A DNA stretch of 22,696 nucleotides from a virus. Shown piece after piece: positions 3,771 to 21,588 of this stretch (position 1 is its first letter; each line of letters begins with the position of its first letter). Under the pieces are notes generated by a model. That model had not been told where the DNA came from, did no database searches, and saw only the letters and a program-made list of their open reading frames with translations. Both the position numbers and the translations under genes were made by a program. The stretch lies in the IMG/VR virus record IMGVR_UViG_3300017605_000139, positions 1-22,696 of that record; one strand, given 5' to 3'.

Positions 3771-5231
3771 CTAGTTGCTTCCGCCGCTGAACGAGACGCC
3801 TGCGTTCGGGCCTCCGCTACCTGGGCTCTCGACCCACTCCTCGATCGTCTGCTCCACGAGGTCCGTCACCGTGATCTGGTCGCCGCCGGACTGGCCGAAC
3901 GTGCGAACCGTCGCGGCCGAGTCGTTGGCGATGAGGATCCAGCCGGACGCCTGACCGCCACCGCTGTCACCAAGGCCGCCGGCAGGGACCGCCCCGCCAG
4001 GCTGTAGCGTGCCCAGCGCGGCGCTTCCATCCGGGTTCACGAACGCGACCCCGAAAACCGTGCCGCCGCTGCCTCCGATGCGCTGCTTGGGCTTGAGAAC
4101 GCCCAGCACGCGCACGGCGCGGATGCCGAAGCGCCGCCGCGTGGCGAATCCCTGGTCGGCGTACTTGGCGAAGAGGTTGCCGTTCCAGATCCCCGTGAAG
4201 ACCATGCCGCCTTCCTCGGAGATTTTCGACGTGATGAGCGACTCGATCACGTCCGTAGCGTCGATGGCGGCCCAGTAGACGATGTCGATGGTCAGCTGGT
4301 TCGTATACGGAATGTAGTTCGGGCGCTCCGACAGGATCGCCAGCGACGTGGGGGTGAAGCGCGAGCGAACCTGCTCTGTGATGTAGGGCCGGATCGTGCC
4401 CGTGTAGAGCGTGGCGAGGTCGGTGGAGAGCGTCTTGTCGAGCCAGCACTCGAAGTGGCATGTGATCGTCTCCATGCGCTTCACGCCGCCGCCGCCCGAG
4501 TCGCCCGGCGCCTCGATGCTGCGCGCGATCGACAGCACAGGGGCGACGATGCTCGCGTTGTCGAGCGAGCCGCCCGGCTGCGCCACGAACATCTCGCGGA
4601 ACGTGCGGGAGAACCGGACGACCTTGTCCTGGTCGTCGCGCTCCGTCTCCTGCGCGGTGAGCTCGAACGTGCCCGAGGGGAGCAGCGCCGAGAGCGCCGA
4701 CGAGCAGAACGCCGCGATCTGGGCCGCGTACTGCGCGGTTCCCTCGACCGTCGTGAGTGCCGTCCACACCCCCTTGATCGTCACCGTGCGGCCCTGCGCG
4801 GGATCGTAGGTCACGGTCAGAGAGGAATCGCGCCGGCCGCTCGTGTCGGTGCTGGGCAACTCCCCGCCCACCGTCACGGTGTAGAGGCGCGAGCGGTCGG
4901 TGTCTGCGCCCTGCGTCCCCGCCTTGTCGATGCGCGCGTAGGTGTTCAGGCCGGTGTTCACGGCGGCGGTCGGATTAAGCGTGCGCTCCGTGCTGCTGCC
5001 CCACTCCATCTTGAGCAGTTGCCGACGCTTGCTGAACTCGGACTCCATCTCGGCACAGTTGGCCGCGAAGGTCGCGTCCGATGTGCCTCGGATCAGAACG
5101 TCGAACGTCAACTCGAACAGCGAATGCTCGCGGTGGAACCGATGCAGGCCGGTGATGAGCCGTTCCGTCGTGCCGCCGCAGACGAATGAGCCCCACGTCA
5201 GTTGAAGATTGTTCGTGACCGCGGCGGCCAT
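3771..5231 (-). CDS. Distal tail structural protein (486 aa), unknown family
   Basis: The start is the ATG at 5231, whose A is shared with the TAA of the upstream gene (TAATG), giving MAAAVTNN. An in-frame start at 5258 would lie inside the upstream gene and is less likely. The protein is mostly beta-rich with two helical stretches (ATFAANCAEMESEFSKRR and AAQIAAFCSSALSALL). It looks like two tube-type beta domains in series followed by a third segment. The last 120 residues are Gly/Ser-rich and end in SGGSN. Its position between the tape-measure candidate and the hub-like protein fits a distal tail or tail-tip ring protein. I do not recognise a named family. Confidence 0.75.
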   Translation of the reverse strand: MAAAVTNNLQLTWGSFVCGGTTERLITGLHRFHREHSLFELTFDVLIRGTSDATFAANCAEMESEFSKRRQLLKMEWGSSTERTLNPTAAVNTGLNTYARIDKAGTQGADTDRSRLYTVTVGGELPSTDTSGRRDSSLTVTYDPAQGRTVTIKGVWTALTTVEGTAQYAAQIAAFCSSALSALLPSGTFELTAQETERDDQDKVVRFSRTFREMFVAQPGGSLDNASIVAPVLSIARSIEAPGDSGGGGVKRMETITCHFECWLDKTLSTDLATLYTGTIRPYITEQVRSRFTPTSLAILSERPNYIPYTNQLTIDIVYWAAIDATDVIESLITSKISEEGGMVFTGIWNGNLFAKYADQGFATRRRFGIRAVRVLGVLKPKQRIGGSGGTVFGVAFVNPDGSAALGTLQPGGAVPAGGLGDSGGGQASGWILIANDSAATVRTFGQSGGDQITVTDLVEQTIEEWVESPGSGGPNAGVSFSGGSN

Positions 5232-5821
5232 TAGAAGATCCCCTTCGACTCGAGCCACGTCACGAACTTGTCGAGCACGTTCGTCAGGCGCGTGAACACG
5301 TCCTCGGCCGTGTCCTTGCCCGCCATGCCCATCGCCTCGGCCCGGACCTCGGCCTTGCCGCGCGCCTCGGGCTCGTAGAGGTCACGGAGCGACTCGTAGA
5401 GGCTCTGGACTTCGCCGCTGCCCGCGCCACCGGCCCCGCGCGCCGTGCCCAGCAACGCCGCCGTTTCCTCTGCCGCGCGCTGACGGCCCGAGACAGCGCC
5501 GCCCATGCCCGCGAGGCCCATCGCGCCCGACGCCGCGTTGCCGAGCCCGCCCAGCATCCCGTTCGCCACGCCGAAGATGTCGCGGCCGATGGGGGCGCCG
5601 ATCATGCCCAGCGGGGCCAGCGCGGCGAGCGAGCCGAGCAGGCTTCCGACGTTGAAGCCTCCTCCGCCTACACCGCCACCGAAGCCCTGCCCGCCGCCAC
5701 CGATGCCGCCACCCCCGCGCACGGGAACGGTGACGCCGCGGCCGGCTTGCGAGTAGAGCGACGACAGCTCGGACTTGGCGCCGGCCAGGTCGAGCGACAC
5801 GCGAATGGAGGCATCAGCCAC
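5231..5821 (-). CDS. Short glycine-rich tape-measure-like protein (196 aa)
   Basis: The GTG start at 5821 shares one base with the upstream TAG (TAGTG). The N-terminus (SIRVSLDLAGAKSELSSLY) resembles tape-measure N-termini, which often begin with a short strand and an amphipathic helix. Residues 36-56 are almost all Gly. Residues 57-110 form a Gly/Ala/Leu hydrophobic region that could be one or two membrane-inserting helices. Residues 112-196 are helical and charged. It occupies the tape-measure slot, just before the distal tail genes, but is far shorter than the usual 600 or more residues. Either it is a miniature tape measure for a short tail or it is a tail-tip membrane-active protein. The first reading is inference. 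Confidence 0.68.
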   Translation of the reverse strand: MADASIRVSLDLAGAKSELSSLYSQAGRGVTVPVRGGGGIGGGGQGFGGGVGGGGFNVGSLLGSLAALAPLGMIGAPIGRDIFGVANGMLGGLGNAASGAMGLAGMGGAVSGRQRAAEETAALLGTARGAGGAGSGEVQSLYESLRDLYEPEARGKAEVRAEAMGMAGKDTAEDVFTRLTNVLDKFVTWLESKGIF

Positions 5822-6657
5822 TACGTCACCGTGCCCGTGCGGTACGAGCCCTTGTCGCGCGCCTTCGTCTGGACGCTGAAACGCTCATCGACGGCTGCGC
5901 CCGACTCTGAAAAGGCCGCGAACAGCGCGAACGAATGCGCCCCCGCCGACAGGCCCGACACCGTGACCGACGTGGCGAGGTCGCTGGCGAGCGTGACGCC
6001 CGTGCCCGCCGTGCTGCTGCTCGGGGCCGTCGATCCCGAAGCGCGCCGAAGGATGATCTTCCGCAGCCCGTAGGCGCTCGGCGGCAGCACCCACGCGAGC
6101 GTGGCCTGCCCCGGCGTCGTCACGTCGATCGTGAGGTCCGTGGGCGCGAGGTACTCGTCGGCGCGCGTGCAGAGCGCCGTGAGGATGTATTGCCGATGCA
6201 CGACGTGGACGTTCTTGTCGAGACGCTCGGGGGCTGGGCTCGACCCGTGCGAGACGATGACGGGCGTCCCGTCCGCGCCGGTCAACTTCCCAAGCGACGT
6301 GAGCAGGGCCGTCTCGAGGTCGAGCAGCCCGCGTCCCTGGCTCTGGCCGAGGCGGTTCGTGGCCCCCGCGCTCGACGGCCCGCCGATCATGGAGTGCTCG
6401 CCCAGCGGGTCGCCCAGCACTTCGCACGCGATGACCAGGATGAACTCTTGCGTCAGGAGGTCAGGGTCCTCAGGGTCGGGCGTCTGTGTGCCGAGGTTGA
6501 TGAGCCCGAACGGCATGCGCAGGGGCTTGTCGTCGTCGTCCCGTAGCCCCGCCGTGACGTAGACGGATGTTCCGAGGATGAGCCCCCCGGGGGTGTCGGG
6601 CCAGGCGGCGCGCTGCGCTCGGAACCGGATCTGCTTCGCCATCTGGAAGGGGCTCAC
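5821..6657 (-). CDS. Tail-completion-like domain fused to an FN3-like domain (278 aa)
   Basis: I take the GTG at 6657 as start because it overlaps the upstream TGA by four bases, like its neighbours. An in-frame ATG at 6642 has no clear Shine-Dalgarno and would remove five residues. Residues 1-165 are an alpha/beta domain (EFILVIACEVLGDP, LLDLETALLTSLGKL, VHVVHRQYILTALC) reminiscent of tail-terminator or completion proteins. Residues about 172-265 look like a fibronectin type III or Ig-like sandwich: PTDLTIDVTTPGQATLAWV, then a YGLRKIILRRA strand, then TVSGLSAGAHSFALFA. FN3-like additions are common on phage tail proteins. The N-terminal assignment is weak, the FN3-like one moderate. Confidence 0.65.
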   Translation of the reverse strand: MSPFQMAKQIRFRAQRAAWPDTPGGLILGTSVYVTAGLRDDDDKPLRMPFGLINLGTQTPDPEDPDLLTQEFILVIACEVLGDPLGEHSMIGGPSSAGATNRLGQSQGRGLLDLETALLTSLGKLTGADGTPVIVSHGSSPAPERLDKNVHVVHRQYILTALCTRADEYLAPTDLTIDVTTPGQATLAWVLPPSAYGLRKIILRRASGSTAPSSSTAGTGVTLASDLATSVTVSGLSAGAHSFALFAAFSESGAAVDERFSVQTKARDKGSYRTGTVT

Positions 6658-6782
6658 AGGCGACCCCTCAGCCTGAGAGTGCACGCGCGGCTCACGCGGA
6701 ACGCCTGACGGTAGTGCCGCCGAATCCGGGCGATCCTGGCTTGCCACTTGCTCGCGCGGATGGGAAGGGGTGTATCGGTCAC
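6654..6782 (-). CDS. Small basic protein (42 aa), possible second tail-chaperone ORF
   Basis: The GTG at 6782 overlaps the stop of the 103-aa gene by four bases (GTGA), and its own TGA overlaps the next GTG in the same way, which supports a real coupled gene. The product is basic, with many Arg residues (RIARIRRHYRQAFRVSR), and probably one helix. It lies in the -1 frame relative to the gene before it. It sits between the tail-tube candidate and the tape-measure region, where many phages carry tail assembly chaperones of which the second is made by frameshift. No function can be read from the sequence itself. Confidence 0.55.
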   Translation of the reverse strand: MTDTPLPIRASKWQARIARIRRHYRQAFRVSRACTLRLRGRL

Positions 6783-7090
6783 GGCGGGGCCCTCCGCGTG
6801 AGCATGGCCCCGGCCTTGTCCAGCGCCATCCTGGCCGCCGCGTCCTCGGCCGACAGCCCGCCGTCCACCGCCCGGGAGATGGCCTGTAGAGCCTCCGGTT
6901 CGCCCCGCACGGCCCCCGCCAGCACGGCGGCCCGCTCGGCAAAGACCCGGTCCCCGGCGGCTTCCAGCGCCTCCTGGACGGCCGGGTCGAGCGCCAGCCA
7001 CGCCTGGACGGACCCCGGGCACCCCGCCCGCACGTAGGCGAGCAGGCTGGCCGGGCTGGCGCGGCGCGGGGAGGGGCGGAAGGGCCACAT
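6779..7090 (-). CDS. Small helical protein (103 aa), possible tail assembly chaperone
   Basis: The ATG at 7090 shares one base with the stop of the tail-tube candidate (TGATG). The product starts MWPFRPSPRR and is then almost entirely helical and Ala-rich (about residues 15-97: SLLAYVRAG, AVQEALEAAGDRVFAERAA, EALQAISRAV, SAEDAAARMALDKAG). Position right after the tube candidate and a helical, soluble, small product fit a tail assembly chaperone, but no family motif proves it. The local DNA is even richer in GC than the rest of the window. Confidence 0.6.
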   Translation of the reverse strand: MWPFRPSPRRASPASLLAYVRAGCPGSVQAWLALDPAVQEALEAAGDRVFAERAAVLAGAVRGEPEALQAISRAVDGGLSAEDAAARMALDKAGAMLTRRAPP

Positions 7091-7674
7091 CAGAGGGTGA
7101 TGTCCCTGCGCCGCCCGATCGCCGCCGGCCCCTTGCTGGAGTGCCGGAGCGCCATCCACGCGCATTGCGTCCCGATGTCCTCGGTCCGGTTCAAGGCGAT
7201 GGCGAGCGGGTCTCCCATGACGGGCAGGATCCGGTAGAAGTGGACGAAGATCGCGTCCGAGTCTGGGGCCGTGGCGCTCACCGCGTGGGTTGCCCCGTCC
7301 GGCGTGAACGTGACCGCGAACTCCCGAGCCGACATCCACTCGCCCGCGTGGGCCGTCGAGGGGAAGGTCACGAGCCGCCGCTGGGTCACGGTCCCGGCCG
7401 CCGTGGTGCGAAACTCCTTCGCCATCATGTCGTCGTCGAGGGTGCGGACCCGGAAGCGCAGTTTCCAGGCCTCCCCAGGCTCGAGGTACTCGACAGGCTC
7501 GCCCCCCAGGGCCTCGATGGTCACGGGGTAGGCGGCCCCCACCCGCTCGGCCACCACGTCGCGCACAGCCCCCAGCCCCGTCCCGCCGTGGGGCCAGGCG
7601 AGGGCCAGGTTGGTGCAACCGAAGGCGAGGCGCCCCGGGATGCGGCGGATGGCGGAGACGTCCAGCGTGCCCAT
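7090..7674 (-). CDS. Putative tail tube protein (194 aa)
   Basis: The ATG at 7674 overlaps the upstream TGA by one base. The product is beta-rich. It opens with a recognition segment (GRLAFGCTNLALAWPHGG, then LGAVRDVVAE), has an acidic turn at DDD, and closes with strands around DAIFVHFYRILPVMGD. The layout of the opening segment and of a closing strand with a hydrophobic-Tyr-Arg core is one I associate with tail-tube-type proteins of non-contractile phages. It is followed by two small helical/basic ORFs and a tape-measure candidate, the standard order of a tail module. The family assignment is moderate and rests on pattern plus order. Confidence 0.62.
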   Translation of the reverse strand: MGTLDVSAIRRIPGRLAFGCTNLALAWPHGGTGLGAVRDVVAERVGAAYPVTIEALGGEPVEYLEPGEAWKLRFRVRTLDDDMMAKEFRTTAAGTVTQRRLVTFPSTAHAGEWMSAREFAVTFTPDGATHAVSATAPDSDAIFVHFYRILPVMGDPLAIALNRTEDIGTQCAWMALRHSSKGPAAIGRRRDITL

Positions 7675-8126
7675 CAGTCACGCTCCCACACTTGGGCTAG
7701 GCCAGTCGGCGCGGCCCACGACAGCGCATCGCGACCGTCCGGGCCGCTCGCCACGCGCTCCTGCCCCCATTGCTCGCGGTCCGCGCACGCGAAGTACCAC
7801 ATCGGGTACCTGTCACGCCCGACGACCACGACGCCATGCACCTTCGTCGGGTCGAGCTTGTACGTCTCACCAAGGAACACGCTCGGGTATCTGAAGGCCC
7901 TGAGGTCCAACCGGGGACGGCCCTTTACCTCGATGACGTGCCGACCGTTCACGAGCAAGTCGCCTTCGTCAGAGAACTCTCCGCGGTGGATGCTCTGAGG
8001 CGGGTGAATGTCGATGTGGCATCGAACAAAGCAGGTCGGATAGCGACGCACTATCTCCGCCGCGGCCCACACCGATCGGATGTGCCCGTCCACGAGGCTG
8101 TCCAGGAATAGCGCATCGGTCTTCAC
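7674..8126 (-). CDS. PD-(D/E)XK nuclease-like protein (150 aa)
   Basis: The start is the GTG at 8126, overlapping the gpG-like stop by four bases (GTGA). Longer in-frame starts lie inside the upstream gene. Residues 56-68 (GDLLVNGRHVIEVKG) carry the hallmark of the PD-(D/E)XK nuclease/resolvase fold: Asp56, a hairpin, then a hydrophobic strand ending in Glu66-x-Lys68. An upstream helix (HIRSVWAAAEIVRRY) and a later VHGVVVVGRDRYPMWYFA strand pair fit the core fold. There is no signal peptide or membrane segment. Members of this fold include Holliday-junction resolvases, restriction enzymes and recombination nucleases. Its position between gpG-like and tail-tube genes is unusual. Activity and substrate are not shown, and a catalytically dead structural use is possible. 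Confidence 0.72.
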   Translation of the reverse strand: MKTDALFLDSLVDGHIRSVWAAAEIVRRYPTCFVRCHIDIHPPQSIHRGEFSDEGDLLVNGRHVIEVKGRPRLDLRAFRYPSVFLGETYKLDPTKVHGVVVVGRDRYPMWYFACADREQWGQERVASGPDGRDALSWAAPTGLAQVWERD

Positions 8127-9010
8127 GACGCCCTCCGCACCGTGAGCCCGTACAGGCCCTCGATGTCCTTCACGAGCTGCGGCGGCAAGCCCACCATCGG
8201 ACGGGCCGGGTGCTTGACCGTTCGCGCCACGCCCACCATCTTCGGGTTGAGCAGCCAACCGAGCTTCTTCGCGCGCTCGTTCTTCGCGCGAGCGGAGGCG
8301 ACCTTCCCCGCCTCCGCGCCGGTCATGGGCTCGCTCTTGCCGCGCGCCGCAGCATCGACCACGCGCTTGCGGGCCGTGATCTGCGTCTGGATCTGCTGCC
8401 GGCGCTGGCGCTCGCCTGGCGGAACCTTCTGGCCCTGGTATGCGCGCTTGCTCGCCGTGAGCGCGGCCTTTAGCCCTGCGATCTGCGGGTCGTCCTTCAC
8501 GGCGCCACGCGCCTCACGATCCTCCCGCCTCTGCGGCGCCGCCTCTGCGCGCTTCTCCGCCCCGCCGAGCTTCTTCATCCACTCCCACAACCGCGTCTGG
8601 ATCGCCTTCGTGATCGTGGTCGCCTTGGACTCCCCGCCCGTGTGCAGCACGTCGGCGTAGCCCAGCATCGTGCCCTCTTCCACCGTGTTCTGGCCGATCA
8701 CGCGCCACGCGAACGAACGGGCCAGGAGGTTGTTGTCCCGCAGCACGGGTCGGTCCTGGAAGCGCCGCTCGGGGGGCGTCTTGCCGCGCGCGAAGTCTGA
8801 CAGGATGCCGGGCCAGTTGGGGGTCATGCCCGTGTCGCCGCGCGACTTCCACCGCACCCCGCCGAACCGCTCCTCGCGGAAAGCCTTCTGCGTCTCGGCC
8901 ACGAGCAAGGCGCCGATCCCGGGAAGGATGCGCTCGGCCGGGCGCTCGAACGCGCCACGGAGCGCCGCGAACCGCGTTCCTTCGACGAAGATGGGGCCCT
9001 GGCTGTGCAT
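8123..9010 (-). CDS. Mu gpG/virion morphogenesis-family protein (295 aa) with basic helical insert
   Basis: The ATG at 9010 follows the preceding stop by 21 bases. Family-like features in order: GIGALLVAETQKAFREERFGGVRWK (residues about 31-55), LLARSFAWRVI with EEGTMLGYADVLHTGGESK (about 95-129), and the C-terminal HPARPMVGLPPQLVKDIEGLYG (about 267-288), which matches the RPfxGlp-type ending of Mu gpG and P2 gpS relatives. These proteins act in tail completion or head-tail joining. Residues about 135-250 form a long Arg/Lys/Ala/Gln-rich helical insertion that I would not expect in the family. In Mu the gene lies upstream of the protease, whereas here it follows the capsid and connector genes. 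Confidence 0.78.
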   Translation of the reverse strand: MHSQGPIFVEGTRFAALRGAFERPAERILPGIGALLVAETQKAFREERFGGVRWKSRGDTGMTPNWPGILSDFARGKTPPERRFQDRPVLRDNNLLARSFAWRVIGQNTVEEGTMLGYADVLHTGGESKATTITKAIQTRLWEWMKKLGGAEKRAEAAPQRREDREARGAVKDDPQIAGLKAALTASKRAYQGQKVPPGERQRRQQIQTQITARKRVVDAAARGKSEPMTGAEAGKVASARAKNERAKKLGWLLNPKMVGVARTVKHPARPMVGLPPQLVKDIEGLYGLTVRRAS

Positions 9011-9031: not shown

Positions 9032-10381
9032 TTACGGGTCGGTCACAGTCTCGCCGCCCGCCGTCGCGGACGGGAGCGAGATGGGAAGTTGTGCGTAGTC
9101 GGCCGCGTACATGAGCTCGGACGTCGCGGCGGTCGGGCCCGTGTCGGCCGTGGTGAACTTGTCGCGCTGGAGGAACGCCGTCGCCCCGCCGGGGATCCAG
9201 TAGTAGGCGCCGTCCACCAGATCCCACGGGGCGAACCGCAGCGCGTCCACGTTCAGCGTACCTACCGCGAGGTTCACGACCTCGATCTCGATGTCGGGCG
9301 CGTCCTCCTTCCAGTTGCGGTAGTAGAGGTTCTTGTCGATCGTCATGGAGAGGATGTGCCATGACGTGTCGCCCACGGTGGCGAGGTTCTTCGTCGCGGT
9401 CTGGTTTCCCATCTTGAGGTTGAGCGTCCCGGTGCATCCTGCGTTGTTGCAGCGGTACGCGACCTGCGCCATCCACGGAACACGCTCCCCGCCCGCGCTG
9501 ATGTTCGCCACCGACAGGGCCTGCGTCACCTCGTTCGTCGCCGCGCCGTCGATGGCGAACAGGAGCGAGCCGGACAGGGCGGCCGTCACACCAGGCGAGG
9601 CCACGAAGATGTTGGACGCTCCCGTGGCCGCGGTGATGTTCGCCGCCGTCCCGCCAATCGTCCAGTTGGGGATCTTGTCCGTCGAGGTACCCGAGAACGT
9701 CGCGTCCCACGATGCGTTGCGAATCGGCGTCGATCCGCTGCCAGAGTGCTTGACCACGTACGGCCCGAGGAACAGGCCCGAGCCCTGGTAGTCGAGCGCG
9801 TCCTTGCTGCGGTCCTCGCCACGGCACCAGAACTGCTCCGCTCCCTTGAGCGCGCCCGTGTTCTGATCGACGTAGCACTCCCAGGTCTTCGTCTCGACGT
9901 GGCCGCCCTGGAGGTTGTACCCCTCCCAGTCCACCGAGAGCCTGAGCGGGAGTCCTGAGCCCGTACCCGTCACGGCCGAGAACGCCCCGCGCGTCCAGTC
10001 CCGGTCATTGAATGTCACCGAGTTGTCGTGCATGTAGCGATGGAGCCGCGCCCACAGATCGACGCCCGACGTTCCGACCTGTCCGGGAACGCCGCTCGCC
10101 TGCCCAGGGTCCGTCTCGGGGAACCCGCCCAGACGCATGACCTCGCGCCCGAAGGCGTTCCACACGGCGCGCACCTTGGCTCGGCCGTACGTCGCGCTCA
10201 GGTCCGAGCGCAGCGTCGCAAACGCGGCCTCGACGCCGCCCGGCATGAAGTCGCCCTCGTACGCCTGCTCGGCCGTGTCGATGCTCGTGACGATCGTGGG
10301 AAAGATCGTGAGCAGATCGGTGAACGGCTTGATGCCGTTCTTGAGCTGCGCGGAGATCTCTGCCCAGGTGGCGCTAGCCAT
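9032..10381 (-). CDS. Beta-rich virion protein (449 aa) with carbohydrate-binding-like C-terminal half
   Basis: The ATG at 10381 is preceded by TAAGGAGCGAGC, a good Shine-Dalgarno. Residues 1-95 are helical (AEISAQLKNGIKPFTDLLTI, YGRAKVRAVWNAFGREVMRL). The part after about 225 is a Thr/Ser/Ala/Gly-rich beta-sandwich candidate, with a cysteine pair near YRCNNAGC, a WHILSMTIDKN strand and DALRFAPWD, the kind of jelly-roll seen in carbohydrate-binding modules and virion surface proteins. It lies between the gp36-like connector and the gpG-like gene, so it may be a head-tail collar or surface decoration. No named family is recognised. Confidence 0.7.
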   Translation of the reverse strand: MASATWAEISAQLKNGIKPFTDLLTIFPTIVTSIDTAEQAYEGDFMPGGVEAAFATLRSDLSATYGRAKVRAVWNAFGREVMRLGGFPETDPGQASGVPGQVGTSGVDLWARLHRYMHDNSVTFNDRDWTRGAFSAVTGTGSGLPLRLSVDWEGYNLQGGHVETKTWECYVDQNTGALKGAEQFWCRGEDRSKDALDYQGSGLFLGPYVVKHSGSGSTPIRNASWDATFSGTSTDKIPNWTIGGTAANITAATGASNIFVASPGVTAALSGSLLFAIDGAATNEVTQALSVANISAGGERVPWMAQVAYRCNNAGCTGTLNLKMGNQTATKNLATVGDTSWHILSMTIDKNLYYRNWKEDAPDIEIEVVNLAVGTLNVDALRFAPWDLVDGAYYWIPGGATAFLQRDKFTTADTGPTAATSELMYAADYAQLPISLPSATAGGETVTDP

Positions 10382-10390
10382 GCTCGCTCC

Positions 10391-10816
10391 TTACGGTGGG
10401 TCGAGGTTCACGTCCTCGAAGTCCGCGTCATCGAAGGTCGGCGTACGGTCGGGGTCGTCGGCGGTCGGCGTACGCACGCCGTTGCTCGCCGGCGCGATGT
10501 GCGACCGCGGCCCAACGTCCTTCACCATCTCGCACTCGGACTTGAAGTCCGCCCAGAACTCCTTGCCCAGCGCCCTGGCCGACCCGCCCCACTCGCGCAG
10601 GATCGCCTCGACGGCCTCCACCGCGATCGAGACGTGGGCCGCGTTCGTGGACAGGTACGCCGTCTGCGCGTAGATGCCGAACCGCGCCTCGACGTCCGTG
10701 CAGGCCAGCGCGAGGATCGTCGCGTTGACCGTCGTGGCGGTCACGTCGCGCTTGTTCGTGATCTCGACCAGGATCTGCGAGTCGATGCGCGCGGTTACGT
10801 CGGTCGCCAGAGACAC
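10391..10816 (-). CDS. Head-tail connector, Mu gp36/DUF1320-like (141 aa)
   Basis: GTG start at 10816, with a GGGGG stretch a few bases upstream. The first 80 residues follow the plan of gp36-type connector proteins: an N-terminal ARIDSQILVEITNK segment, an Ala-rich helix with the DVEARFG turn, and a further helix AHVSIAVEAVEAILREWG. The remaining 60 residues are an acidic, Pro/Thr-rich tail containing a nine-residue tandem duplication. The order capsid, unknown, then this gene matches the Mu order gpT, gp35, gp36. Without an alignment the family call is moderate. Confidence 0.7.
   Translation of the reverse strand: MSLATDVTARIDSQILVEITNKRDVTATTVNATILALACTDVEARFGIYAQTAYLSTNAAHVSIAVEAVEAILREWGGSARALGKEFWADFKSECEMVKDVGPRSHIAPASNGVRTPTADDPDRTPTFDDADFEDVNLDPP
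10421..10474 (-). repeat. 27-bp tandem duplication in connector tail
   Basis: Two adjacent 27-base units encode RTPTADDPD and RTPTFDDAD (residues 115-132 of the connector-like protein). The first 12 bases of the units (CGTACGCCGACC) are identical and the remainder has drifted. This is a simple in-frame duplication in an acidic, probably disordered tail. Confidence 0.75.
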
Positions 10817-16769: not shown

Positions 16770-17101
16770 GGTGTCACCTTCCTCACCAACCCCCCCGGCC
16801 ACGCGGCGGCGAGGGCGGAGAACACGGTCCAGTTGCCGTTGTCGAGGCGGTAGACCTGCAACTTGCCCGCGTCGATCAAGTCCTGCGCGTGGTCCGCGAA
16901 CTTCTGCACCATCGAAAGGGTCGCGGCGGTTTCCGCGCCCCACGCGACGGTGACGGTGGGCGCGGCGGTTCGGGCCAGCGGCATGAAGTCGAAGGTGCGA
17001 GCGCCGCCCGTGTCGGGGTCGATTGCCGCGTACCGGGTGTTCGCGGTCGCCTTGTCGGCGGCGCGCACGATCAGCAGGTAGCGGCGCACCCAGGTGGTCA
17101 T
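16766..17101 (-). CDS. Unknown virion-operon protein (111 aa)
   Basis: The ATG at 17101 overlaps the upstream TGA by four bases (ATGA), giving MTTWVRRYLLIVRAADK. A start farther upstream at 17131 lies inside the previous gene. The product is mixed: a beta hairpin with the Arg-rich N-terminus, a VAWGAETAATLSMVQKFADHAQDLI helix region, and a C-terminal strand pair ending VRKVTP. No family recognised. It lies between the Ig/lectin-like gene and the membrane peptide, so a head accessory role is possible. Confidence 0.65.
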   Translation of the reverse strand: MTTWVRRYLLIVRAADKATANTRYAAIDPDTGGARTFDFMPLARTAAPTVTVAWGAETAATLSMVQKFADHAQDLIDAGKLQVYRLDNGNWTVFSALAAAWPGGLVRKVTP

Positions 17102-18159
17102 GCGGGGGTGGCCCACTTCGCCTGAGCCCATGTGTGCAGGTTGGTTCGGGCAGTCGCGCCGATGTCGGCGCCGTAGACGGCCAGCACCGCAACCTTGGAG
17201 TTGGCGGGCAGGGAGTTCCCGGCTTCACGCCCGATCTGGATGCCTGCGAGGTCCGACGTGCTGGCGTCCCCCGTTCCGAGAGAGTCGCCGTCCAGCCACG
17301 TCTGCGATGCCGCGCCGCTGTAGAGGCTGACGTGAAGGTGGAGGTTGGCGTCGGCGGCGTCCCCCGTGTCGAACGTGGACCCCGCGAATAGGCCCCAGTT
17401 CACGCCACCCGGGATGAACAGCGTGTTGCGGTTGTTCGTCCCGTCGCCCGAGTCGTACATATGCGCGGCGGCCACGCTGCCGTAGAGCCCGATGGCGATG
17501 ATGGTGTTCGGCTGCGTCTCGGCTCCGCCTGCGAGCGCGGCGCACACGATGGAGTCTCCGCCGTCGAACGAAAGGCACCGCTTGGAGTTGATCCCGTTCG
17601 CGTCAACGGAGGGCTTCGCGCTGCTGGTCGCCTGGATGACCGTGTTCCCGTTGCCCGACAGGTCCGACATCCACCCCACCGGATCGTTGTCCGCCGCCTC
17701 CGCAACATCGCTGCCGTCGCTGGCCGTCTCCAGCACAGAGAACCCCGCCTCGGTGTCGTAGCCCGCCACCAGCCCCGCGATGCTCGACGGGAACCACGCG
17801 ACGGCGATGTTCAGCGTGGCATCGCTCGTCCCGCCCGGCCCCGTCGCCCGAATCACGACGTTCGCCGCCGTCTTGAGCGCGGTGGGCGTGCCGGTGATGG
17901 CGCCCGTGGAGGTGTTGAGCGACACGCCCGTGGGCAGCGTCCCCGACTGCACGGCGTAGGAAGTCACCGCGCCGCCCACGTTCGTGGGGCTCTCGTTCAC
18001 GCTGGTGAAGTAGTCGTACCAGGTGAACGGCGACCCCGCGTAGGAGATGGAGGGGGCGGCGACGCCCTCACCCTGCGGCGGGTACCCAGCGTGAACCACA
18101 CCGCCCTGCGGCGGATACCCGCTGTGGGCGCGGGAACCCTGCGGGGGGTAGGCGCTCAC
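17098..18159 (-). CDS. Surface display-type protein: YPPQG repeats, Ig-like and LamG-like domains (353 aa)
   Basis: The GTG at 18159 overlaps the portal stop by four bases (GTGA). Residues 4-30 hold three YPPQG units at an 11-residue period. Residues about 35-118 look like a putative Ig (He_PIG) domain, with the hallmark SGTLPTGVSLNTSTGAITGT. Residues about 124-353 form a LamG/ConA-like sandwich: GWMSDLSGNGNTVIQ, LSFDGGDSIVC, and a C-terminal YGADIGATARTNLHTWAQAKW helix typical of such domains. Ig-like and lectin-like domains on virions often bind cell or mucus polysaccharides. The place between portal and minor head protein is odd. A fibre or neck-decoration role is inference. Confidence 0.75.
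   Translation of the reverse strand: MSAYPPQGSRAHSGYPPQGGVVHAGYPPQGEGVAAPSISYAGSPFTWYDYFTSVNESPTNVGGAVTSYAVQSGTLPTGVSLNTSTGAITGTPTALKTAANVVIRATGPGGTSDATLNIAVAWFPSSIAGLVAGYDTEAGFSVLETASDGSDVAEAADNDPVGWMSDLSGNGNTVIQATSSAKPSVDANGINSKRCLSFDGGDSIVCAALAGGAETQPNTIIAIGLYGSVAAAHMYDSGDGTNNRNTLFIPGGVNWGLFAGSTFDTGDAADANLHLHVSLYSGAASQTWLDGDSLGTGDASTSDLAGIQIGREAGNSLPANSKVAVLAVYGADIGATARTNLHTWAQAKWATPA
18070..18150 (-). repeat. YPPQG repeat array
   Basis: Three units of YPPQG with linkers SRAHSG and GVVHAG give a 33-base period at the start of the Ig/lectin-like gene. Codons differ between copies, so the repeat is old or selected at protein level. Confidence 0.75.
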
Positions 18160-20220: not shown

Positions 20221-21588
20221 CTACCACGGGCTCGACAGCGCCGAGTCGTCCAGCACCGTCCTGGCCCTGTCCGCGAGCCTCGGCGGGAGGTTCGGCATCG
20301 TCGGCGTGAGCAGCAGGGCATCGTAGGCCGACGACAGCGCGTCCATCTGGTCGAGCAACTGCTTGCCGGGCGTGCCCTGCGGGTTCACGGCCTCAAGCTC
20401 GTCCAGCAGGCCCGACAGCGACCACCCGCCACGCACCAGGCGCACGTCCCCGATCTGCGCCGACGACGCCACCGGGCCGGCGCGGACGAACTTGTCACCC
20501 GTGGGCCTCACCCCCTCGCAGCGGTAGCCGCGCAGCAACCGCACGAGCGCCTCCACCTGGGCAATCCCGCCGCTCCCGGGCTCCTGCTCGATCACCACCC
20601 GCACGCCCTTGCCGTCGCGCTCGGCCGTCTCCCGGATCACCCGGTCGCGCTCGCCCGGCGTCCACCGACCCACCACCACGTCGTCCACGTACATGCGACC
20701 GTCCTGAGCCTTCGCGGCCCGAACGCCGGCCGTTCGCTTCGCTTCGGGGGCCTCGCTCGCCGCCAGGTCCCACGCGCGCACACGAGCCAGCGTCGTGCCC
20801 GGGATCGCGTCCACAATGCGGAACCACTCGCGCTTGAAGAACGACCCGCCGTGCCGGGCCGTCCAGTCGCCGTCCTCGAGCTGCTTTCGCGTCACGGGAT
20901 CGAGGCGCGCGAGGCTCTTGCGGTAGGCCTCCACGTCAAGCTTCGGGTTGTCGGCGAGCCTGGCAGGGATGAACAGGCGCCGCTCGTTCGTGTCGGCGTT
21001 CCACGGGCTGTCCATGAAGTCGCGCTTGACCCACTCGTGGCCGTCGCCGCCGGGGTTGGAGGTCGAGCGCATACGCAGCCGCACCCTCGACAGCGGGCCG
21101 GATTCGGGGCGCCTGAGTCGCGAGAACAGGTAGCGGTACTGCAGCTCGCGGTGCTGCGTGAGCTCGTCCACGCCGATCATGGAGAGCTGCGACCCCTGGT
21201 AGCGCAGATGGTCGGTCGGGTCGGACAGGTAGCCGAACGAGAGCGAGGCGCCGCTCGGGAACGTCCACCGCGACTCCGAGCCGTTCCACTTCGCCTTCGT
21301 GGACCCGAGCCACTCATGGGAGATTGGGATCAGGCAGCCGGGAAGCGACAGGTCCATGAACGACTTGCGGATGAGCAGGGCCGCGTAGCCCGGCGTCTCG
21401 ACATCGGCCAGCGCGTCCATGAGGATGGCGAAGGTCTTCCCTCCACCCGCGCTCCCTCCGAACAGCACCTCGCTATTCGTGGAGAGCAGGAACACGGCCT
21501 GCGCCTCGTTGGGGAACACGGGCACGTAGGGGTTCGTGCCGAGGCGCAGCGAGGTCATCAGCGCGACGCGGTCGGGGGAGAGCGTCAC
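20221..21588 (-). CDS. terL: Terminase large subunit (455 aa)
   Basis: The GTG at 21588 overlaps the upstream TGA by four bases. It is the ATPase/nuclease motor that packages DNA into proheads. ATPase domain: Walker A GGSAGGGKT (44-52), Walker B IGVDE (138-142), coupling motif SNPGG followed by HEWVK (177-188). Nuclease domain (RNase H-like): RAWDLA with Asp274, VVIEQEPGSGG with Glu334, and DQMDA (413-417) as the third acidic site. The RAGPVASSAQIGDVRLVRGG segment (369-388) is also typical. The length is normal and all catalytic positions appear intact. It binds the portal encoded further downstream. Confidence 0.95.
   Translation of the reverse strand: MTLSPDRVALMTSLRLGTNPYVPVFPNEAQAVFLLSTNSEVLFGGSAGGGKTFAILMDALADVETPGYAALLIRKSFMDLSLPGCLIPISHEWLGSTKAKWNGSESRWTFPSGASLSFGYLSDPTDHLRYQGSQLSMIGVDELTQHRELQYRYLFSRLRRPESGPLSRVRLRMRSTSNPGGDGHEWVKRDFMDSPWNADTNERRLFIPARLADNPKLDVEAYRKSLARLDPVTRKQLEDGDWTARHGGSFFKREWFRIVDAIPGTTLARVRAWDLAASEAPEAKRTAGVRAAKAQDGRMYVDDVVVGRWTPGERDRVIRETAERDGKGVRVVIEQEPGSGGIAQVEALVRLLRGYRCEGVRPTGDKFVRAGPVASSAQIGDVRLVRGGWSLSGLLDELEAVNPQGTPGKQLLDQMDALSSAYDALLLTPTMPNLPPRLADRARTVLDDSALSSPW

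Follow-up and report, generated by a model that had tools for sequence, protein, structure and literature searches.

A probable PD-(D/E)XK nuclease gene at a head-tail gene seam of an uncultivated phage looks like a mobile accessory gene

Free-standing homing endonucleases occur as optional genes between two conserved genes (PMC6083498). In phage T4, seven free-standing homing endonuclease genes appear to be promoterless cassettes (PMC2988022), and homing endonuclease genes have also been described near terminase and capsid genes (PMC10448857). The phage homing enzymes described are mainly of the HNH, GIY-YIG and EDxHD types, whereas the published ones with a PD-(D/E)XK fold come from genomes of cyanobacteria and protists and not from phages (PMC3943268). 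Here we describe a gene in a virus record from IMG/VR that is 22,696 bases long and probably fragmentary; this record, analyzed at its full length, is called the window below. The gene very probably encodes a PD-(D/E)XK-type DNA-cutting enzyme, and its features suggest a mobile accessory gene and not a virion component. The features at and around the gene are as follows.

7674..8126, minus strand: PD-(D/E)XK-like nuclease gene with GTG start and TGA stop, 150 aa (translation, homologue on contigs L226/L227, motif statistics)
7959..7961, minus strand: Asp56 codon, within DEGD56LLV (translation; conserved in L227)
7929..7931, minus strand: Glu66 codon, within VIE66VK (translation; conserved in L227)
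7923..7925, minus strand: Lys68 codon (translation; conserved in L227)
8132..8136, minus strand: GGAGG, Shine-Dalgarno-like, 5 nt ahead of the nuclease GTG (sequence reading)
8123..9010, minus strand: gpG-like virion morphogenesis gene (PF05069 family), the conserved upstream neighbor (family profile, synteny)
7090..7674, minus strand: g7090, the conserved downstream neighbor, ~190 aa (synteny in related loci)
7683..7687, minus strand: GGGAG in the nuclease gene's 3' end, 8 nt ahead of the next ATG (sequence reading)

The plus strand across 7674-8126 is interrupted by stops, and the open reading frame runs on the minus strand from the GTG at 8126 to the TGA at 7674. An earlier note had placed Asp56, Glu66 and Lys68 in a frame at this position without giving its strand, and its numbering proved exact. 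The translational coupling it described is visible at both ends of the gene: the GTG, preceded by GGAGG, overlaps the stop of the upstream gene by 4 nt (GTGA), and the TGA shares one A with the ATG of g7090, whose translation the GGGAG could serve. The upstream gene had been called gpG-like, an assignment upheld by the PF05069 'Phage virion morphogenesis family' profile, which matches 7 of 8 family members (best E 8.6e-15), with the window's own copy, taken singly, falling below threshold. In its C-terminal half, this gpG-like protein has ~70-95 additional residues that form a charged stretch, and two related loci (L105 and L112) have different insertions at the same place. The g7090 product, which the earlier note had taken for a tail-tube candidate, belongs to a conserved gene family and returned no library match in support of that role.

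The bare catalytic triad is uninformative, because the spacing D-x(7-14)-[DE]-x-K arises in 24% of shuffles of the nuclease protein. The full strand context, GDLLVNGRHVIEVK, comprises G-D with a hydrophobic run, followed by a hydrophobic pair and E-x-K. It appeared in 4 of 100,000 shuffles (4e-5). Related loci supplied 9,463 distinct ORFs with a minimum length of 100 aa, and the only one to contain it is the nuclease gene itself. Two AlphaFold runs gave low-confidence models (pLDDT 42.1 and 43.6) with a first helix followed by strands, an order compatible with the nuclease core; the placement of the triad at the end of two core strands is putative. Two Foldseek searches with these low-confidence models returned nothing at E <= 0.001.

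Divergent members of the PD-(D/E)XK superfamily often fail curated family profiles, and such a match is not a defining feature of the superfamily. No family model in Pfam, PHROG, NCBIfam or PADLOC matches the protein; three PHROG models that fell just short of a match in the same region (phrog_3174, E 0.17; phrog_36683, 0.069; phrog_4774, 0.13) were too weak to be counted. Sequence and profile searches of the PDB gave nothing relevant, and exact-peptide scans with the nuclease protein alone found no relative in viral or genome collections. Whole-protein tblastn against phages and plasmids yielded chance hits only, among them one in phage Cueylyss that lies antisense to an annotated gene. Nothing was found in 301 Chloroflexota genomes with a two-row profile or in 400 with a pattern scan.

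A homologue was recovered by scanning IMG/VR with a degenerate DNA pattern, EVK...[FY]P-x-[VI]-[FY]...E-x-x-K, that had been tried on the window first. Only two contigs matched, L226 and L227, which count as one case because they have 9.8 kb in common at 99.99%. The homologue set is therefore two proteins, the window's and the 157-aa product of L226/L227, alignable from the first residues with 31% identity over 93 aa. L227 conserves Asp56, Glu66 and Lys68 together with Tyr80-Pro81, Phe84, Glu87, Lys90 and Asp92. As both contigs were selected by the pattern, residues 1-65, which lie outside it, make a fair homology test; shuffling gave p ~1e-3 for this part, and the C-terminal third showed no significant alignment. 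An orphan protein without nuclease function, its D...E-x-K arising by chance, would fit the empty library searches and the low-confidence models. This reading is quite improbable given the rarity of the motif context and a homologue with a conserved triad and an aligned N-terminus.

When the 61-residue core was compared with 50,697 phage records by tblastn, only one gene family matched (E 6-10), mostly annotated as Holliday-junction resolvases of Streptomyces phages. The resolvase itself has a firm PHROG resolvase match (4e-27), and alone against the PDB it gave sub-threshold matches to Hjc structures. Profile comparison with hhalign assigned the resolvases a probability of 47% and P 1.9e-4, where two control profiles had P 0.25 and 0.39. 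We read this likeness as support for membership in the PD-(D/E)XK superfamily, not in the Hjc family. Together with the rare motif context and the triad kept in full in the sole homologue, it supports the PD-(D/E)XK identity proposed in the earlier note, which had asked whether the three residues are conserved.

These matches also bear on a second possibility, that the protein is a resolvase-like PD-(D/E)XK enzyme whose gene moved into the late operon and that trims branched replication DNA during head filling, a late recombination or packaging nuclease that is useful and unselfish. The L227 homologue belongs to the recombination module of another phage. A recombination-type gene directly precedes it, and the gene just downstream of it encodes a DUF1064 protein that matches phrog_190 'Holliday junction resolvase'. 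In Burkholderia Lessievirus, the equivalent slot, defined as that after the homologue of the window's neighbor gene, holds by sequence reading an HNH-like protein plus a RusA-like or VRR-NUC-like protein. The resolvases as the core's only phage matches, and their profile P value, point the same way. However, the similarity is weak at E 6-10, the resolvases of L227 and of the Streptomyces phages sit in replication modules rather than structural ones, and related phages do without the gene at this junction, as set out next. Of the roles that the earlier note had offered, this one is the main rival of the explanation favored below, at a lower probability.

Scanning directly for close relatives of the window returned none. 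Related loci were reached from terminase hits to one contig (L048) and from there, through alignments of the MuF and major head proteins, to more than 100 loci, many of them on fragmentary records. Their gene order is largely that of the window. Profiles of gpG and g7090 placed both genes in 98 of these loci (77 distinct by downstream-gene sequence), and the nuclease gene lies between them in none. The spacing from gpG to g7090 is -34 to +24 nt in 86 loci and 43-159 nt in seven; the remaining five carry 1.3-3.5 kb of other genes without similarity to the nuclease gene, as listed here.

L150:14211-16044, L216:4746-6076, L160:14143-15518, L193:1247-2987, L220:3963-7426: unrelated inserts at the gpG/g7090 junction

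The insert in L150 contains an 809-codon open frame that reads on into the downstream gene with no intervening stop. A protein search of the whole records of 35 relatives' loci also gave no nuclease match, a weak empty answer in that its positive control was the window only.

The window encodes both seam-flanking proteins in full. In a tree of gpG plus g7090, the window is nested among the relatives, and its sister (L176; support 0.94) has a zero gap and lacks the gene. A single gain on the window's branch would be the simplest history of these sequences. The nearest relative is 1.7 substitutions per site away, and relatives this distant put the date of the insertion out of reach; a near-identical pair of phages with and without the gene was not found among them.

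The absence of the gene from the relatives' gpG/g7090 junctions means that the head-tail structure does not require it, and it does not behave as a structural gene kept in place across related phages. The idea of a neck protein, such as a tail terminator, was rejected on the same ground. The earlier note had remarked that an enzyme is not expected here, which an insertion explains. It had also suggested a dead domain with a structural use, which at this position would be a catalytically dead or degenerate nuclease serving as a head-tail or tail-terminator protein. The location between the gpG-like gene and the next morphogenesis gene would suit such a role, but the 98 junctions that keep both neighbors and lack the gene largely refute it, and it is further made unlikely by the intact D, E and K of the catalytic triad. 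We regard it as very improbable, the least probable of the readings considered here.

Base composition and codon usage set the gene apart from the other window genes tested. Its GC content is 64.7%, its GC3 0.80 and its codon adaptation 0.52, as against 66-73%, 0.85-0.96 and 0.64-0.81 for the other window genes tested. ORF 6654-7088, which has lower values, was left out of these ranges as probably a wrong frame, because the relatives' gene at that place resembles a window ORF in another frame. The outlier composition is consistent with lateral acquisition. No promoter-like or terminator-like site was seen in 7500-8300, where the promoter scan covered sigma-70-type sites only; a moron with its own promoter was considered, and that scan revealed none.

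An accessory, laterally acquired gene among structural genes could also be a weapon, a late nuclease that degrades host or competitor DNA and is possibly carried in the virion. Defense models (PADLOC) gave no match to the protein and nothing ties it to the particle, and we hold the weapon to be unlikely. Virion carriage, another of the roles proposed earlier, is disfavored because the relatives' junctions do not contain the gene.

Our leading explanation, absent from the roles that had been proposed, is a mobile one. We tentatively favor a laterally acquired, promoterless PD-(D/E)XK cassette whose product acts inside the cell late in infection, most likely as a free-standing homing-type endonuclease. 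The preference for a homing-type nuclease rests on placement: optional nuclease genes in seams between conserved genes are the pattern of free-standing homing endonucleases, and this gene is optional, lies between two conserved genes and has an empty counterpart in the relatives. From what is directly observed (the motif, the triad-bearing homologue, the 98 empty junctions, the intact flanks, the outlier composition and the lack of a recognizable promoter), we infer the fold, the nuclease activity, the timing, the sequence specificity and the homing. A single-gene cassette would have inserted exactly at the stop/start seam, leaving both conserved neighbors intact and translationally coupled, and translation of the nuclease would use the structural operon's message. 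The protein would presumably act on DNA in the cell late in infection, not as part of the virion. It may cut related phage genomes that lack the gene, probably near the gpG/g7090 junction, and repair from the carrier genome could then copy the cassette into the cut genome.

Several observations count against homing. The position of the L227 homologue in a recombination module favors a DNA-repair role. Published PD-(D/E)XK homing enzymes, as noted above, are not phage-borne. Profile libraries recognized no additional DNA-binding domain in the protein, which is near neutral (pI 6.6). HNH or HNH_3 genes, common homing types, were not found in 39 related viral records, which makes the case slightly weaker.

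The window's head module is Mu-like and lies on the minus strand, with a large terminase, a portal (PF06074), a MuF-like protein (PF04233) and a major head protein (PF10124/phrog_371). The nearest named phages by large terminase (20221-21588) are the methanogen viruses psiM2 and psiM100, at 44%, and a related head protein (L174) was found in a Chloroflexi MAG contig. An accessory gene between portal and MuF (17098-18159) contains YPPQG repeats and matches a virion-structural PHROG; in L048, another accessory gene (L048:2219-4195) separates the terminase from the portal. Within 9032-10816, the genes at 10391-10816 and 9032-10381 are swapped relative to the major head protein compared with most relatives, an order that L109 shares with the window. 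At the expected tape-measure position, the window has only a 196-aa Gly-rich protein (5231-5821), and related loci have ~0.5-1.8 kb between the genes that flank this position. If 5231-5821 is the tape measure, the tail would be very short.

Together, these findings would explain simply how a probable enzyme came to lie in a phage structural operon, as a passenger and not a virion part. They also introduce a PD-(D/E)XK protein group that is new, very divergent and missed by current profile libraries, and they caution that late-operon position alone is a poor guide to virion function. It is possible, though a step less probable than the homing-type cassette as such, that the gene represents a phage-borne free-standing PD-(D/E)XK homing endonuclease that spreads from seam to seam among the structural genes of a large, uncultivated family of phages. 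If homing were demonstrated, the protein would be a new variant; judged by the evidence so far, it is a new, divergent PD-(D/E)XK member in an unusual place. A precise empty-versus-filled junction is now available for a direct test of homing by this fold.

Among known systems, the nearest detectable PD-(D/E)XK relatives are the Hjc-like resolvases of Streptomyces Likavirus (Nabi gp37 and Goby gp36), a similarity that is not significant alone (E 6-10). They have equivalents of Asp56, Glu66 and Lys68, reading DEGDLVI...VIEAK where the window protein reads DEGDLLV...VIEVK, and both have LDP-K-V-GVV-V in the strand region that follows. The Likavirus proteins are shorter (120 aa versus 150 aa), and their genes lie beside a helicase and a primase, whereas the window gene lies between head-tail genes. 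The L226/L227 gene, with a GC content of 54%, belongs to the recombination module of a different phage, in contrast to the head-tail seam of the window. I-Ssp6803I, a small single-domain PD-(D/E)XK homing endonuclease of ~150 aa, has the same catalytic motif as proposed here; it is encoded by an intron in a cyanobacterium, whereas the window gene has no intron and its product no PDB sequence match. The seg and mob genes of T4 encode GIY-YIG or HNH enzymes with DNA-binding regions, unlike the window protein, whose homing is putative. In their arrangement, seg and mob are like the window gene: optional and single between two conserved genes, co-oriented with their neighbors and with no recognizable promoter of their own.
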